From Acetobacteraceae bacterium (GTDB lineage Bacteria; Pseudomonadota; Alphaproteobacteria; Acetobacterales; Acetobacteraceae), in assembly GCA_009693865.1 (NCBI GenBank), contig SHWL01000006.1, forward strand, positions 1 through 64,000: a stretch of 64,000 bases of DNA, given 5' to 3'. The translations under genes and the position numbers were made by a program. Under the pieces are notes generated by a model. That model was not told the origin of the DNA. It ran no database searches and saw only the letters and a list, made by a program, of their open reading frames with translations. The first letter of the stretch is position 1, and the number at the start of each line of letters is the position of its first letter. Positions 1-5,883 of the stretch are shown one piece after another.

Positions 1-2095
1 ATGGGCGGCCGACCCGTCGCGGGCCAGTTCGATCAGGTCCTGTCGTGATTCGCTGTCGAGGAAGCCGCGCCGGATCATGGATGGAAGCAGAATAGTTTTC
101 GATCCGGTTGGCAAGCGATTCCTTCGGGTTTTGGGGGAGTCGGGGTATAATTGGGGTCGGAGCCCAAATAGAATTACTATTTGAACCTTGACCCCAATTC
201 GGCGGTTCGCGTTTCAGGGCCAAACGGGCGGCTTCGACAGACGGAAACAAACCGGGATGGGCTTTGTGCAGATCGGAGGCGCCCAACGGCACAATGCCCG
301 TCGCCGCCCAGGCCCGGTCCCAGCGAGAGCCGCCCGCAGCCAGATCCGCATGCCTGAGAATCCGATCGTAGGTCACGTCCAGCGCGAGATTGTTCATCAG
401 GGTGATCGTCCTCCGGTTGAAGATTGGCCGCACCCGATCGGCGGCCTGGACGATCTCGGCCTCGCGAATTTGCTCCAGCACCTCCTGAACACGCGGATCG
501 GGATGCACCTCGACCTCGACCGCTGTAACGCTTCCATCCGCCATGCGCCGCCCACGCGTGGCACGGTATGGCCAATAAGGCCAAAGCCAATCAGGTGGCG
601 GCGCTATCGCCATCGACACAAACGGCGCGGAGTCCCTTGCCATGTAGGCGCGAGCCCGGTTTTCCACCATGTCGATTGAGGGGCTTTCTCTCCCCGCCAC
701 CAGTACCGACTGGCAGTCCTCCCAGATATTAAGCCCGCGGACTGCTCCAAAATGGGCGCAGCGGACCTGATCGCCCCGTCCGACAGTTTGCCGAATTTTT
801 TCCGCCACCGATTTGTTGCTGACGATCAGGGCGGGACCAGGAGAACGCTCCGCGATCGCGATGATCTCCTTCCGCATCCGAGCGCTACTCTCAACTAACG
901 ATGAGGTCCCGGTCTCAGAGCGATTTTGGCCCGACAGCGATTGTCGCGAATAGTTCCGTCCCAGAGTACCCGTGATATCGGCGTCTCGGGGAACGGAAAT
1001 GTGGATATGTTCGATGTTCGGGAAGACGGCCTCATTCAGGCCCCGCGATCCGGTGCCATCCATAACAAGGATCGATGCGTACGGGGGGACCGATATCGTG
1101 GGCCGAAGACGATGGATGGTGACCCATTCAGACCGTTTCTCGTTGCGTGAGTGCAATACGACGCCAGTCAGGGTGTCTCGCCCAAGATCAATCTCCAAAG
1201 CGATCGCCGCGATCAGTTCGCGTACTTTGAGTGCCTCGTATCCCTTCATCATGTCGATAGCCGAATTTATCTCCTGATCCGACATGAAGCCATTGATCGA
1301 GATTTTACAATACTCAATCCCGCGCGTTATGATCGACGATGCGCACTTCAGGTCTGCGGCCGCAACCCCTGAATCTCGCAGCGCCGCAAGTGGTCGCGGA
1401 CCGCGTAGGGCTGTCAGGAGCTTTGTGAGCGTTCTGACGGCGGCGGAGGCTGCCTCGGACAGGTCGTCATCGATTCCAAGCCAAAGCGGGATCTGCTCAT
1501 TGCTCGCGACAGGCAGATGTATTTCTTCGATGGCGATCATGGTGACCGCTTCGTCAGCGACAATAAGATCAGGTGCTGGTGCGGGACATCGCACAAAAAG
1601 GTATTCCCGTGACAGCACGAAAAATGCCCGATTTCCGAGCGCCGCGATTTCGCGTTCTTGTCTTATATACCCGCAGCTACCCCTGAGGGGACACGTTTTG
1701 CAAATGACCTGTTGGATCGCGATCCCGATCAACGCCAATTTCCCGATTGTCGCGTGGCGCGGACACATTTTCTCGCCAACTTTCCCATGCGGATCTTCGG
1801 CGAGCCGGCCGCGAATCACCATGATCGGCAAGGAAGCCTGGTGCATTATCGCGCGATATTGATCGGCGACCTCGTCTGCCTTTGACGTTGTCGGTTGTGC
1901 GCACCACACGATCATGTCGCCAAGTAGCGCCGCGACGGCTTCCAGCGCGACCGTGGTCTTGCCGGTAGCCTGCGATCCGGTCAGCAGCACTCGTTGACCT
2001 GGCGGCGGCCGTTTCAATCTCTCACAAGCCAGAACCGCGCGTGGAATGCGTCGCTGGATCGCTCGGCTGGTCTCCGGGGCCTGACCAAGTGTCAC
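1..2095 (-). CDS. Large P-loop ATPase/helicase of the integrated element (partial, C-terminus beyond left edge of window)
   Basis: Manual translation of complement(2..2095), 698 codons with no stop: GTG start overlapping primase stop (GTGA), VTLGQAPETSRAIQRRIPRAVLACERLKRPPPGQRVLLTGSQATGKTTVALEAV (Walker A), ...EKMCPRHATIGKLALIGIAIQQVICKTCPLRGSCGYIRQ..., ...APDLIVADEAVTMIAIEE (Walker B-like), ...SILVMDGTGSRGLNEAVFPNIEHIHISVPRDADITGTLGRNYSRQSL..., ...ALIVSNKSVAEKI...HFGAVRGLNIWEDCQSVLVAGRESPSIDMVENRARAYM. Not in the supplied ORF track because no stop lies in the window. Confidence 0.82.
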   Translation of the reverse strand, partial: MTLGQAPETSRAIQRRIPRAVLACERLKRPPPGQRVLLTGSQATGKTTVALEAVAALLGDMIVWCAQPTTSKADEVADQYRAIMHQASLPIMVIRGRLAEDPHGKVGEKMCPRHATIGKLALIGIAIQQVICKTCPLRGSCGYIRQEREIAALGNRAFFVLSREYLFVRCPAPAPDLIVADEAVTMIAIEEIHLPVASNEQIPLWLGIDDDLSEAASAAVRTLTKLLTALRGPRPLAALRDSGVAAADLKCASSIITRGIEYCKISINGFMSDQEINSAIDMMKGYEALKVRELIAAIALEIDLGRDTLTGVVLHSRNEKRSEWVTIHRLRPTISVPPYASILVMDGTGSRGLNEAVFPNIEHIHISVPRDADITGTLGRNYSRQSLSGQNRSETGTSSLVESSARMRKEIIAIAERSPGPALIVSNKSVAEKIRQTVGRGDQVRCAHFGAVRGLNIWEDCQSVLVAGRESPSIDMVENRARAYMARDSAPFVSMAIAPPPDWLWPYWPYRATRGRRMADGSVTAVEVEVHPDPRVQEVLEQIREAEIVQAADRVRPIFNRRTITLMNNLALDVTYDRILRHADLAAGGSRWDRAWAATGIVPLGASDLHKAHPGLFPSVEAARLALKREPPNWGQGSNSNSIWAPTPIIPRLPQNPKESLANRIENYSASIHDPARLPRQRITTGPDRTGPRRVGRP

Positions 2096-3342
2096 GACCC
2101 TGCGTTCTCGGCCTTGATTTCGGCTCTCACCGCTCGCCGGATCGCGGCGTCACGACCCGCCTGAGCGATGACCTTACGGATCACCTCGTTCTGACGCGCC
2201 AGGGCGGCGTCGCGGGTCTCGGTCGCGCTGGGGTAGTAAGGAAGCAAACCGTGTCCCGGCGGCGCCACGGTCGGTCCACGTGTCTCGCGTTCGGCGGCTT
2301 TCTCGATGAACCAGGTCAACCATGGCCTCGCATCGCGTATCCGACGGTTCAGGTACGCGTCGCCGCGCCGTCCGATCCGCTCGCGCAGCTTTGCTTCGAC
2401 CTGGGCAAGCAGTGCCTCCTGATCCAGATTGGAACCAAACTCCTGCGTCGCCGCCTTGAACGCGGCGTCGATCGGCGCGTGGAAACCGCGCCCGTCCGGC
2501 CATTCCGGAGGATCGCCCATCAACTCCAGGGCTTCGTCCACACTCGCCACGTGCAGGCCCTCACCGTGCGCCGTGCCGCCTGTGCCGTCTCGCGTCCACG
2601 TTTCCAGGTCAGGAACCTGGACCTCATCGTCGATGCCGAGATGCAATCCATGACGCTCCGTCAGAAAGTCACGCTGACCCGGCGGGAAAATCGGCGCGGC
2701 GACATAAATCGGTTGCACGATCGCATGCACCGATGGATCGGCGATCGAGGCTGGGATCCATCGCTTTGCCTCCGCGTTCGTGACGGGCCGCGACAGCCAG
2801 AAGAACAGGCGCACCCGGCCACCGGGTTTGATGCCATGCCCGGACGTGAGTTGGCGGAAGCATGACGCCCTGCCGAACTCCGGTGGCAGCCGTTCGAGCG
2901 CGGCGTCGATGACGTGTTCGGCGTCCTCGATCGGATCGATATGAGCGGGCAATGGAAAGCTATCCAGATCGAGCGCGATCCAGCGCCTGGCGCGTTCCTC
3001 GAACACCGAAACACCCGCGATCTCATCCGGCCGGTCATACGCCAGCCGCCGGACACCGCCGGGGCGAACCGCGATCTCCTCGAAACCCGGGCGGATGCCG
3101 CCCCGGATCACGCAGGTCTTCGGATCCCGTGCCGCCGTCCCGAGGACGTCGCTCAATGACGCAATATCGTGGACCGGGATTTCGCGCGCGTTGACGCGAG
3201 TGATGCCGCCAAAGTCTCGTGCGACTTTCCATGCACCATCAACCCGCTGTAGCGTTTTCGTGAGCCGGGAATCCTTGGGCGTGACGACGGTGAGGAGAAC
3301 GATGCCGTCTTCGGTGTCATCGGCGGCGACGACGGCACTCAT
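2092..3342 (-). CDS. Primase/replication-initiation-like protein of the integrated element
   Basis: ORF MSAVVAADDTEDGIVLLTVV...; segment WIALDLDSFPLP...SGHGIKPGGRVRLFFWLSRPVTNAEAKRW resembles element-encoded archaeo-eukaryotic-type primase proteins; overlaps helicase (GTGA) and HTH gene (ATGA). Confidence 0.6.
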   Translation of the reverse strand: MSAVVAADDTEDGIVLLTVVTPKDSRLTKTLQRVDGAWKVARDFGGITRVNAREIPVHDIASLSDVLGTAARDPKTCVIRGGIRPGFEEIAVRPGGVRRLAYDRPDEIAGVSVFEERARRWIALDLDSFPLPAHIDPIEDAEHVIDAALERLPPEFGRASCFRQLTSGHGIKPGGRVRLFFWLSRPVTNAEAKRWIPASIADPSVHAIVQPIYVAAPIFPPGQRDFLTERHGLHLGIDDEVQVPDLETWTRDGTGGTAHGEGLHVASVDEALELMGDPPEWPDGRGFHAPIDAAFKAATQEFGSNLDQEALLAQVEAKLRERIGRRGDAYLNRRIRDARPWLTWFIEKAAERETRGPTVAPPGHGLLPYYPSATETRDAALARQNEVIRKVIAQAGRDAAIRRAVRAEIKAENAGS

Positions 3343-3647
3343 GACGGCACCTTTCGTACCACCGGCGCGCGACGGCCGCTCATGACGACCGGAGCCGCGT
3401 TCAGCATGGCGAATGCGATCCGGAGCCCCTTGATCGTCGGGACGATCGCTTTGCCGTTCACGCATTGCGTGGGCAGCGGCCACGCCTCAAGGGTCCGATA
3501 CGAAACCGGAAAGAAATGCCGGGTGATGACATCAGCGAGGGTTCGACGATCCATCCTCACGGGCAGTGTCAGCAACAGTTCTTCAAGCTCAGGTGGTAGT
3601 ACTACCGAATTGGCCTCAACGGCCAGGTTCTCTCGAAGACAAGGCAT
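3339..3647 (-). CDS. Small HTH/excisionase-like DNA-binding protein
   Basis: MDRRTLADVITRHFFPVSYRTLEAWPLPTQCVNGKAIVPTIKGLRIAFAMLNAAPVVM, resembling small AlpA/excisionase-type proteins of integrative elements; 4-bp overlap with downstream primase. Confidence 0.55.
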   Translation of the reverse strand: MPCLRENLAVEANSVVLPPELEELLLTLPVRMDRRTLADVITRHFFPVSYRTLEAWPLPTQCVNGKAIVPTIKGLRIAFAMLNAAPVVMSGRRAPVVRKVPS

Positions 3648-3657
3648 CGTACGTCAA

Positions 3658-3685
3658 CTCCGTGGCGTTACGCGACGCAACGGAG
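3658..3685. promoter_or_regulatory. Candidate operator: 11-bp imperfect inverted repeat CTCCGTGGCGT-N6-ACGCAACGGAG
   Basis: 10 of 11 arm positions complementary; lies 11 bp upstream of the HTH gene start codon. Confidence 0.45.
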
Positions 3686-3731
3686 GCTACTGACGCGGGG
3701 GACTCACAATCCACGGGGCTATTGTGAGGAA

Positions 3732-4319
3732 TCATCGCGAGCCGGGACGGGAGCGTCTCCAACTCTTCAACCACGTGGGGGTGATTCGCTTGTCGCGCAC
3801 CTTGACGCCCATCCTCCCGAGATAAACAGAAACCCGCTTTTCTGCCTCTGATTGGGTGACGCAATTCACCATTTGATACATGTCAACGAATTCGAGGCAA
3901 GAGTCAATCGTATCCTTCTGACGACTGTTATACCGCGCCGTGCCACCGACATTTTTTCGCTTCAGCCGCTCGTCGACGAGCCCATGGTCAAGATCGCCAA
4001 GCGCCTTCGCCAATTCCGCAACCAACTGGCTCGTTGGGTGCTCTACGACGACTACTATATCGTCGGTGGCGAAGCTGGTTTCCATTATCGCGCCGACCGC
4101 CTCGGCAATAGCCTCTAAGATGGTAACGATGGTCCTGCGGTCGAAGCTTGTGGAAAGTGACCCCTCTGGAGTGAGTTCTCTTAATCTCTCGCGGAGTTTG
4201 ACGACAGTAATCAGGTCCCGAAAATCTTCAGGCGAGAGGCGGCTGCGCGCCTTGTCAGTTTCGTCTCTCTGGACTGACGCAGCCGCAACCAGGGCGGACT
4301 TGGTTTTGTCGTTGCTCAT
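3732..4319 (-). CDS. Hypothetical protein between integrase and HTH gene
   Basis: ORF from ATG at 4319 (MSNDKTKSALVAAASVQRDETDKARSRLSPEDF...); 4-bp ATGA overlap with the integrase stop. Confidence 0.6.
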   Translation of the reverse strand: MSNDKTKSALVAAASVQRDETDKARSRLSPEDFRDLITVVKLRERLRELTPEGSLSTSFDRRTIVTILEAIAEAVGAIMETSFATDDIVVVVEHPTSQLVAELAKALGDLDHGLVDERLKRKNVGGTARYNSRQKDTIDSCLEFVDMYQMVNCVTQSEAEKRVSVYLGRMGVKVRDKRITPTWLKSWRRSRPGSR

Positions 4320-5653
4320 GCACGGTTCTGCGCGAATACTACGATCTCGGCCCCAGAAGCTTCCTTGCCACCGATTTCGGCTACCAGCAGTCGACCCCAC
4401 AACTCCATCGCTTTGACCTGTTCCGGCCATCGGCTGGAACGTTGATAGACGCCAAGTACTCCACCCCGCGTCGCTGCTTGTCGGTGGTTCAGCACGGCGT
4501 CAGCGACAGCCTCGGGGATCCCCGCTTCGCCCAGCGTCGACGCGAAACTGCGGCGGGCATCATGGAACCGCCATCCTGTCAGGCCGGGGTCAGCCTTCGC
4601 CAGCGCGGCCTTAATCTTGGTAAACGTGTCGATCGCCTTTCCCGCGCGGGGCGAGGGGAACACAAGACCTTTTTTAGGCTTACCCGCAGTCTCGTGCCGC
4701 CCTCGCAGGATGTCCAGCGCCAGCGGGTGCAGATGCAGCCGGTGGGGGTCGCGGTTTTTGGTCATATGCCCGGGTTGCGCCCAGATGCCGTCTTCCAGAT
4801 CGACGTGCGGCCATTCCAGGTGCGTGGCCTCGCTTCGGCGGCAAGGTACAACGATGAGGAACCGGATCAGATCGCGATGGACGTCATCGAGCCCCATTGC
4901 CGTCTCCGCCAGCTTCCACAACCGAGCCAGTTCGTCGGTTTCGAGATATTCAGCCCGTGAAGCGGGAGCCTTCGGGCGCCGCGACTTCGCCACCATGCTG
5001 CACGGGTTCGCCTGCACCAACCCGTCGTCCCGGCACCAATCGAAAAAGCGGCTGATGGCGCCGAACCTGTGACGCGCGGCGTTAGGATGGTGGGGGTCGG
5101 CGCGCAGCAACTTCCGCAGGTCAGGCGCTCCGATATCCGCGATTGGCTTTGCCCCGCAGCCCATCGCCAGAACGGCGGCCTTGACGTGTGAGATTTCCTC
5201 GCTCGCGTGTCCGGGCGAGATGATGCCGCTCCCGCGCAGCCGGGGACGCTTCGGAACATCCTTGATGTAGGCATGCACCAGCCTGTCAACGGTCCGTGAG
5301 CGGCGTGCGGCATCGCTCGCGATCCTCGCTTTACGAACAGCGGCTGGGTCGCCTCCGGCCTTCGCGAGGCCCTTGTGGGCATTCGCCGCCTGCCGCGCAT
5401 CGTCGGGAGAATGATCGGCCGGATTCCCGATCGTGATGGAGCGTGACGCGAACCGCTTCCCGGTCCCCGCGTCGATCCCGCGCGGTTTGTAGTCAAATCG
5501 CCACGTGAGGCCGGTCGCGTTCACCACCAGCGCCAACCCCCGGCATTCCGAGTCACCTATCACGATCCGCTGGTCGGCCGACCGCCGGCGCCAAGCCGTG
5601 TCGATCGTTGCCTTGGTTATTCTCGTCGGCCCTTCCCGAAGTACCTTCATCAT
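4316..5653 (-). CDS. Tyrosine-type site-specific recombinase/integrase
   Basis: MMKVLREGPTRITKATIDTAWRR..., DUF4102-like N-terminus, catalytic-domain features (LIRFLIVVPCRRSEATHLEW, HRLHLHPLALDIL, GWRFHDARRSFASTL, VLNHRQ...YQRS). Adjacent to tRNA 3' fragment. Confidence 0.92.
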   Translation of the reverse strand: MMKVLREGPTRITKATIDTAWRRRSADQRIVIGDSECRGLALVVNATGLTWRFDYKPRGIDAGTGKRFASRSITIGNPADHSPDDARQAANAHKGLAKAGGDPAAVRKARIASDAARRSRTVDRLVHAYIKDVPKRPRLRGSGIISPGHASEEISHVKAAVLAMGCGAKPIADIGAPDLRKLLRADPHHPNAARHRFGAISRFFDWCRDDGLVQANPCSMVAKSRRPKAPASRAEYLETDELARLWKLAETAMGLDDVHRDLIRFLIVVPCRRSEATHLEWPHVDLEDGIWAQPGHMTKNRDPHRLHLHPLALDILRGRHETAGKPKKGLVFPSPRAGKAIDTFTKIKAALAKADPGLTGWRFHDARRSFASTLGEAGIPEAVADAVLNHRQAATRGGVLGVYQRSSRWPEQVKAMELWGRLLVAEIGGKEASGAEIVVFAQNRA

Positions 5654-5834
5654 CGCCCCCAAAATCGGACGCCTGTTCGAAGACCGGCCTAACCGGACAT
5701 TGACCGGACATTTGATGCGGAGGCAAGCGGAAAGTGACGTAACCTGCCGGGATCGATTACTTCTAATTTTGGCATATAGCTTGGGATTTCGGTAACCTGC
5801 GGATGGACGCGGAACCTGACGGAAGCGGTTATCC

Positions 5835-5883
5835 TCGGTTTTGTAAACCGAAGGTCGGGGGTTCAAATCCCTCACCGGCACCA
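5835..5883 (+). other. 3' fragment of tRNA-Thr(UGU): attachment-site (attR-like) remnant
   Basis: TCGGT-TTTGTAA-ACCGA anticodon arm (anticodon TGT), variable loop, GGGGG-TTCAAAT-CCCTC T-arm, ...CCGGCACCA end; no D-arm or 5' acceptor strand upstream. Confidence 0.8.

Follow-up and report, generated by a model that had tools for sequence, protein, structure and literature searches.

A tRNA-Thr-associated integrase, primase and helicase module in an Acetobacteraceae genome: one end of a candidate phage-satellite-like integrative element

We examined a stretch of 64,000 nucleotides (the window) from a metagenome-assembled genome (MAG) of an Acetobacteraceae bacterium, which comprises 4.48 Mb in 209 contigs and is 80.9% complete. 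The first base of the window is also the first base of contig C27. Five genes, all on the minus strand, run leftward from a tRNA fragment in the order integrase, an overlapping open reading frame (orf), a small helix-turn-helix (HTH)-like gene, primase and helicase. A first-pass annotation of the locus had described five same-strand genes joined by short stop/start overlaps, and both the common strand and the exact overlaps (integrase/orf, ATGA; HTH/primase, ATGA; primase/helicase, GTGA) were confirmed. It had also placed the right boundary at the 3′ fragment of a tRNA gene, which held upon comparison with intact tRNAs: the 48 bases at positions 5836 to 5883 (plus strand) agree throughout with the intact tRNA-Thr(UGU) of genus mates, apart from a single base that is deleted from the acceptor stem. 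This fragment is the candidate right attachment site. The 3′ ends of tRNA genes are targeted repeatedly by integrases of this type, and tRNA-Thr(CGU) sequences were seen close to another two relatives. ARAGORN called no intact tRNA in the window, no intact tRNA-Thr(UGU) was found in the 80.9%-complete MAG, and no unoccupied site sharing the right flank of the window was found within 1.5 kb in the genus mates.

The gene closest to the tRNA fragment (4316 to 5653, minus strand) encodes a tyrosine integrase of 445 amino acids with arm-binding, central and catalytic domains as assigned by Pfam (PF00589, E = 1.5e-13; PF13356; PF22022) and a strong match to PHROG 1 (E = 1.4e-50). Its end overlaps by ATGA the start of an orf of 195 amino acids and unknown function (3732 to 4319, minus strand), which gave no family match above the cut-off. 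Positional counterparts of this orf in three relatives (L128, L138 and L143) are joined by a 4-base GTGA overlap, and no sequence similarity was found between the orf and the integrase-overlapping genes of L128 and L079. The third gene (3339 to 3647, minus strand) encodes a small HTH-like protein of 102 amino acids without a Pfam match above the cut-off, the only hit being DUF5440 at E = 0.017. It is a candidate excisionase/activator or regulator.

The fourth gene (2092 to 3342, minus strand) encodes a primase of 416 amino acids that matches PHROG 16950 (E = 6e-13) and is assigned to the archaeo-eukaryotic primase (AEP or PrimPol) type. The DhD and SxH motifs and a later aspartate, which are the motifs of archaeo-eukaryotic primases (PMC5862659), are conserved across its relatives, with the histidine of SxH replaced in some plasmid and fused versions. 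A fold search with the primase model returned PrimPol proteins as the best matches, which were weak, none being under E = 0.001. Single-sequence searches of genome and viral collections with the primase gave nothing, and a profile search gave matches. A primase profile was positive in 51 of the 398 host-family genomes and in 7 of the 387 sampled class-wide, with the window's own genome counted in both numbers. In a profile search of public genomes, the named relatives were mostly Acetobacteraceae, and we accordingly place the host in or near this family.

Downstream of the primase lies a truncated helicase gene (150 to 2095, minus strand) with a Walker A motif, a Walker B motif (DE) and four invariant cysteines. 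Profile searches pointed weakly to iron-sulphur helicases of the DinG/XPD type, and a fold search returned a DinG/XPD-type match at E = 2.7e-7 from a model of low confidence (mean pLDDT, 57.5). Together, the fold match, the cysteine pattern and the weak profile matches suggest a DinG/XPD-like helicase of superfamily 2. The helicase partner of the primase varies among relatives, being DinG/XPD-like in the window, DUF3631 in L138 and L142, and DUF3987 in L013. In L014 and its likes, the partner belongs to the primase/helicase PHROGs 1139 and 8841, which we take to be DUF927-like (Pfam was not run on these proteins). Related helicases occur on plasmids and also beside phage genes, namely those for a DNA methylase, RuvC, a portal protein and a terminase small subunit.

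The open frame of the helicase had been read as helicase up to the window edge, which was not borne out: the native helicase sequence ends at about position 205, and the last stretch of the frame belongs to an insertion sequence. The 5′ end of this IS630-family element (about 1 to 149, minus strand) was recognized by an exact 147-bp match between the start of the window and the start of contig C64 and by its likeness to a copy in L186, which is 92% identical at the DNA level and is followed by an open reading frame for a DDE_3 transposase (E = 2.4e-29). Judging from these matches, an IS630-family insertion sequence interrupts the element at its left side. Since related helicases run 69 to 206 residues past the point where homology to the window stops and the insertion sequence occupies positions 1 to 149, the helicase of the window is truncated and has lost its C-terminal end. 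Between the native helicase sequence and the IS630 end, at the disrupted 3′ end of the helicase, direct reading of the sequence revealed a hairpin of 51 bp (149 to 199) with 10-bp arms, AATTGGGGTC and GACCCCAATT. It is present as a single copy in the MAG, which rules it out as a genome repeat.

The IS630 end also opens contig C64 and recurs in L186, and contig C27 therefore breaks at a repeat. As the first base of the window, which lies within the insertion sequence, is also the first of the contig, the left half of the element is absent from the assembly. The first-pass annotation had placed this half outside the window. Contig C64 itself was considered as the missing left half and rejected, because beyond the common 147 bp it carries ordinary-looking chromosomal genes; we take its start as a second IS630 copy. 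By eye, hicA/hicB-like toxin-antitoxin genes adjoin this other copy at about 220 to 880 of C64 (L003, G000:C64).

In agreement with the first-pass annotation, which had noted that conjugation genes are lacking in the visible part, Pfam and PHROG searches of the visible 5.9 kb detected no relaxase or type IV secretion gene, and also no structural, capsid, packaging or terminase gene, a result confined to the assembled right-hand part of the element. Furthermore, no Terminase_6N gene was found in the MAG at its 80.9% completeness. Among relatives, terminase large or small subunit genes were found downstream of the primase-helicase module in L079, L061, L078, L143, L077, L016/L018, L181 and L014. 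The plasmids of L016 and L018 (Roseomonas mucosa NZ_CP025065 and NZ_CP147885; 24 to 28 kb) carry ParA, an integrase, a fused primase-helicase and a Terminase_2 small subunit, with no annotated capsid genes. Among 76 proteins encoded downstream of the primase at 14 other loci, a scan gave three terminase-small matches, one baseplate hub (in L135), and one match each to a tail tape measure protein and a head protein. In L135 (G457:C60), a prophage-like locus, this primase is followed by the baseplate hub gene. By its gene contexts, the primase-helicase module travels in prophages, plasmids and small elements.

We also identified nine distinct relatives bounded by exact repeats of 40 to 48 bp, with sizes from 7.7 to 17.4 kb: L128 (8.6 kb), L130 (14.7 kb), L138 (7.7 kb), L142 (10.7 kb), L155 (8.9 kb), L172 (10.1 kb), L177 (7.7 kb), L181 (12.8 kb) and L014+L088 (17.4 kb). 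Two complete elements belong to cultured species, L142 (with L159) to Falsiroseomonas algicola and L177 to F. stagni. ARAGORN was run on five of the nine (L128, L130, L138, L142 and L014), and in each of these a tRNA gene was called at the integrase-distal end, with a 3′ fragment by the integrase. By analogy, this is the layout expected for the window element. The nearest complete relative is L128, which spans 8.6 kb between 43-bp tRNA-Lys repeats and shares the gene order of the window, with 51% identity in the integrase, 54% in the HTH protein (over 56 residues) and 39% in the primase. It also carries a helicase resembling the one in L014, and a terminase-small-like DUF5681 gene whose product is similar to a Terminase_2 protein encoded on a Roseomonas plasmid.

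A scan of 56 mostly non-core proteins from the seven compact bounded relatives (L128, L130, L138, L142, L155, L172 and L177) gave a complete Pfam list without any capsid, portal, tail, relaxase or type IV secretion family. The matches were excisionases, repressors, one terminase small subunit, one endolysin-like protein and an MmeI restriction-modification protein, with the first 25 of 33 families among the PHROG matches listed. Genes in the bounded elements were called with a simple script rather than a trained gene finder and the reading frames were scanned in part, so small or odd genes may escape these counts. A terminase-like gene was found in only three of the nine bounded relatives (L128, L181 and L014). 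The largest of the nine, L014+L088 (G048:C45, about 163437 to 180836), lies between 48-bp tRNA-Arg repeats and holds an integrase, the same primase, a portal gene, HNH, TerS and TerL, its capsid and tail content being partly annotated. It is a candidate capsid-forming satellite or small prophage.

Taken together, we consider it somewhat better than an even call that the window holds the integrase-proximal end of a phage-satellite-like integrative element belonging to a family spread through Acetobacteraceae. This assignment rests on the nearest complete relatives, as the visible half alone does not tell a prophage, a plasmid and a small element apart. The satellite or PICI-like character proposed in the first-pass annotation is therefore upheld in part: the bounded relatives that keep this gene order are small, lie between tRNA-derived repeats and showed no capsid, tail or conjugation family in the scan, and several relatives carry a terminase gene. 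Against it stand the lack of a visible terminase in the window and of any in most compact relatives, the prophage-like locus L135 and the absent left half.

The same observations can be read in other ways. If the window were a prophage remnant, genes for a head and tail would lie, or would once have lain, in its left part, and its replication module would be phage-derived. The position of the primase upstream of a baseplate hub gene in L135, the head and tail-tape-measure matches in the same set of loci, and the related helicases near DNA methylase, RuvC, portal and terminase-small genes are consistent with this. However, the bounded relatives closest in gene order measure 7.7 to 14.7 kb and lack structural genes, and it is these compact elements that the window matches in its integrase-to-tRNA layout and module order, which makes a prophage origin unlikely. 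We give similarly little credence to a plasmid-like element that integrates, replicates on its own and needs no helper phage, its spread relying instead on cointegration, on transformation or on conjugative mobilisation in trans. Fused primase-helicases do occur on Alphaproteobacterial plasmids from 18 kb up, some with ParA and an integrase, and most compact relatives are devoid of terminase; yet several lineages, among them plasmids, repeatedly have a terminase gene downstream of the module, and no relaxase was found in the seven compact bounded elements scanned. That the locus is a dead genomic island, once mobile but by now fixed, eroding and without a function, appears quite improbable. 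The IS630 insertion that truncates the helicase and the one-base deletion in the tRNA fragment speak for erosion, whereas the integrase, HTH and primase frames are all open and the catalytic residues of the primase are conserved. Moreover, erosion concerns the state of this copy and not the kind of element.

For the favored phage-satellite-like element, a life cycle can be proposed in which the integrase, with the HTH protein as excisionase and perhaps the overlapping gene, would excise a circle that the primase and helicase would then replicate. A helper phage would package the element, and some relatives might steer packaging by a terminase subunit of their own. Because its helicase is interrupted by IS630 and one base is gone from its tRNA fragment, the copy in the window is probably decayed and no longer active.

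Phage-inducible chromosomal islands (PICIs) are defined by a conserved organization with an integrase, a replication module and a master transcriptional regulator, a size of about 12 to 15 kb, a unique att site never used by prophages, and induction and packaging by helper phages (PMC6092414). The integrase and replication genes are present in the window, where the HTH protein is a candidate regulator only; the bounded relatives measure 7.7 to 17.4 kb, and the window's own left end is absent from the assembly. The element resembles PICIs of Gram-negative bacteria in its integrase, small candidate HTH regulator and primase/replication module, and in having small bounded relatives without structural genes, some relatives carrying a terminase small subunit. 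It differs in having no known helper and in showing only one end in the window.

A match in gene order is offered by the PICMI of Vibrionaceae, a small element in which an integrase is followed by an ATGA-overlapping gene, an HTH gene and then a primase (PMC10803314), all of which the window has in the same order. The integrase-overlapping gene of PICMI is needed for excision, and the ATGA overlap is common there, not universal (PMC10803314). PICMI integrates beside fis and encodes an AlpA of PF05930/PF12728 and a DUF3987/DUF5906 primase (PMC10803314). In contrast, the window element lies at tRNA-Thr(UGU), its HTH protein matches neither PF05930 nor PF12728, and its AEP-type primase gave no Pfam match to DUF3987 or DUF5906.

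The 17.4-kb relative L014/L088 resembles capsid-forming PICIs (cfPICIs) in its integrase, primase, portal, HNH, TerS and TerL genes, while neither capsid nor packaging genes are visible in the window. AEP primases of the PrimPol-PV1/all3500 kind pair with exchangeable helicases (DUF927, DUF3987 and a remote superfamily-2 type) on mobile elements (PMC5862659), and the window likewise pairs an AEP primase with a helicase on a mobile element. It departs from these modules in that primase and helicase are encoded by two distinct genes that overlap, and in the DinG/XPD-like nature of the helicase, which has four cysteines.

We tentatively propose, as an idea that could well fail, that these loci represent an undescribed family of Acetobacteraceae phage satellites that share a single conserved AEP primase and combine it with exchangeable helicases (DinG/XPD-like, DUF927, DUF3631 and DUF3987), present in about one genome in eight and ranging from minimal through terminase-only to portal-carrying forms. 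Searches of an open-access library found no paper describing phage satellites in Acetobacteraceae, an absence that carries little weight. Should the family prove real, its elements, graded around one primase from minimal to portal-carrying, would offer a way to test how packaging genes are acquired or lost by satellites, and to ask which phages such satellites use.

In another member of the genus, an integrase with 56% identity lies beside the same tRNA-Thr(UGU) 3′ fragment (L090; G001:C70, 3722 to 5260), and its cargo differs from that of the window and includes a protein of 844 amino acids of unknown function. The bounded 14.7-kb relative carries as cargo an MmeI-like restriction-modification protein (L130:13840-17016).
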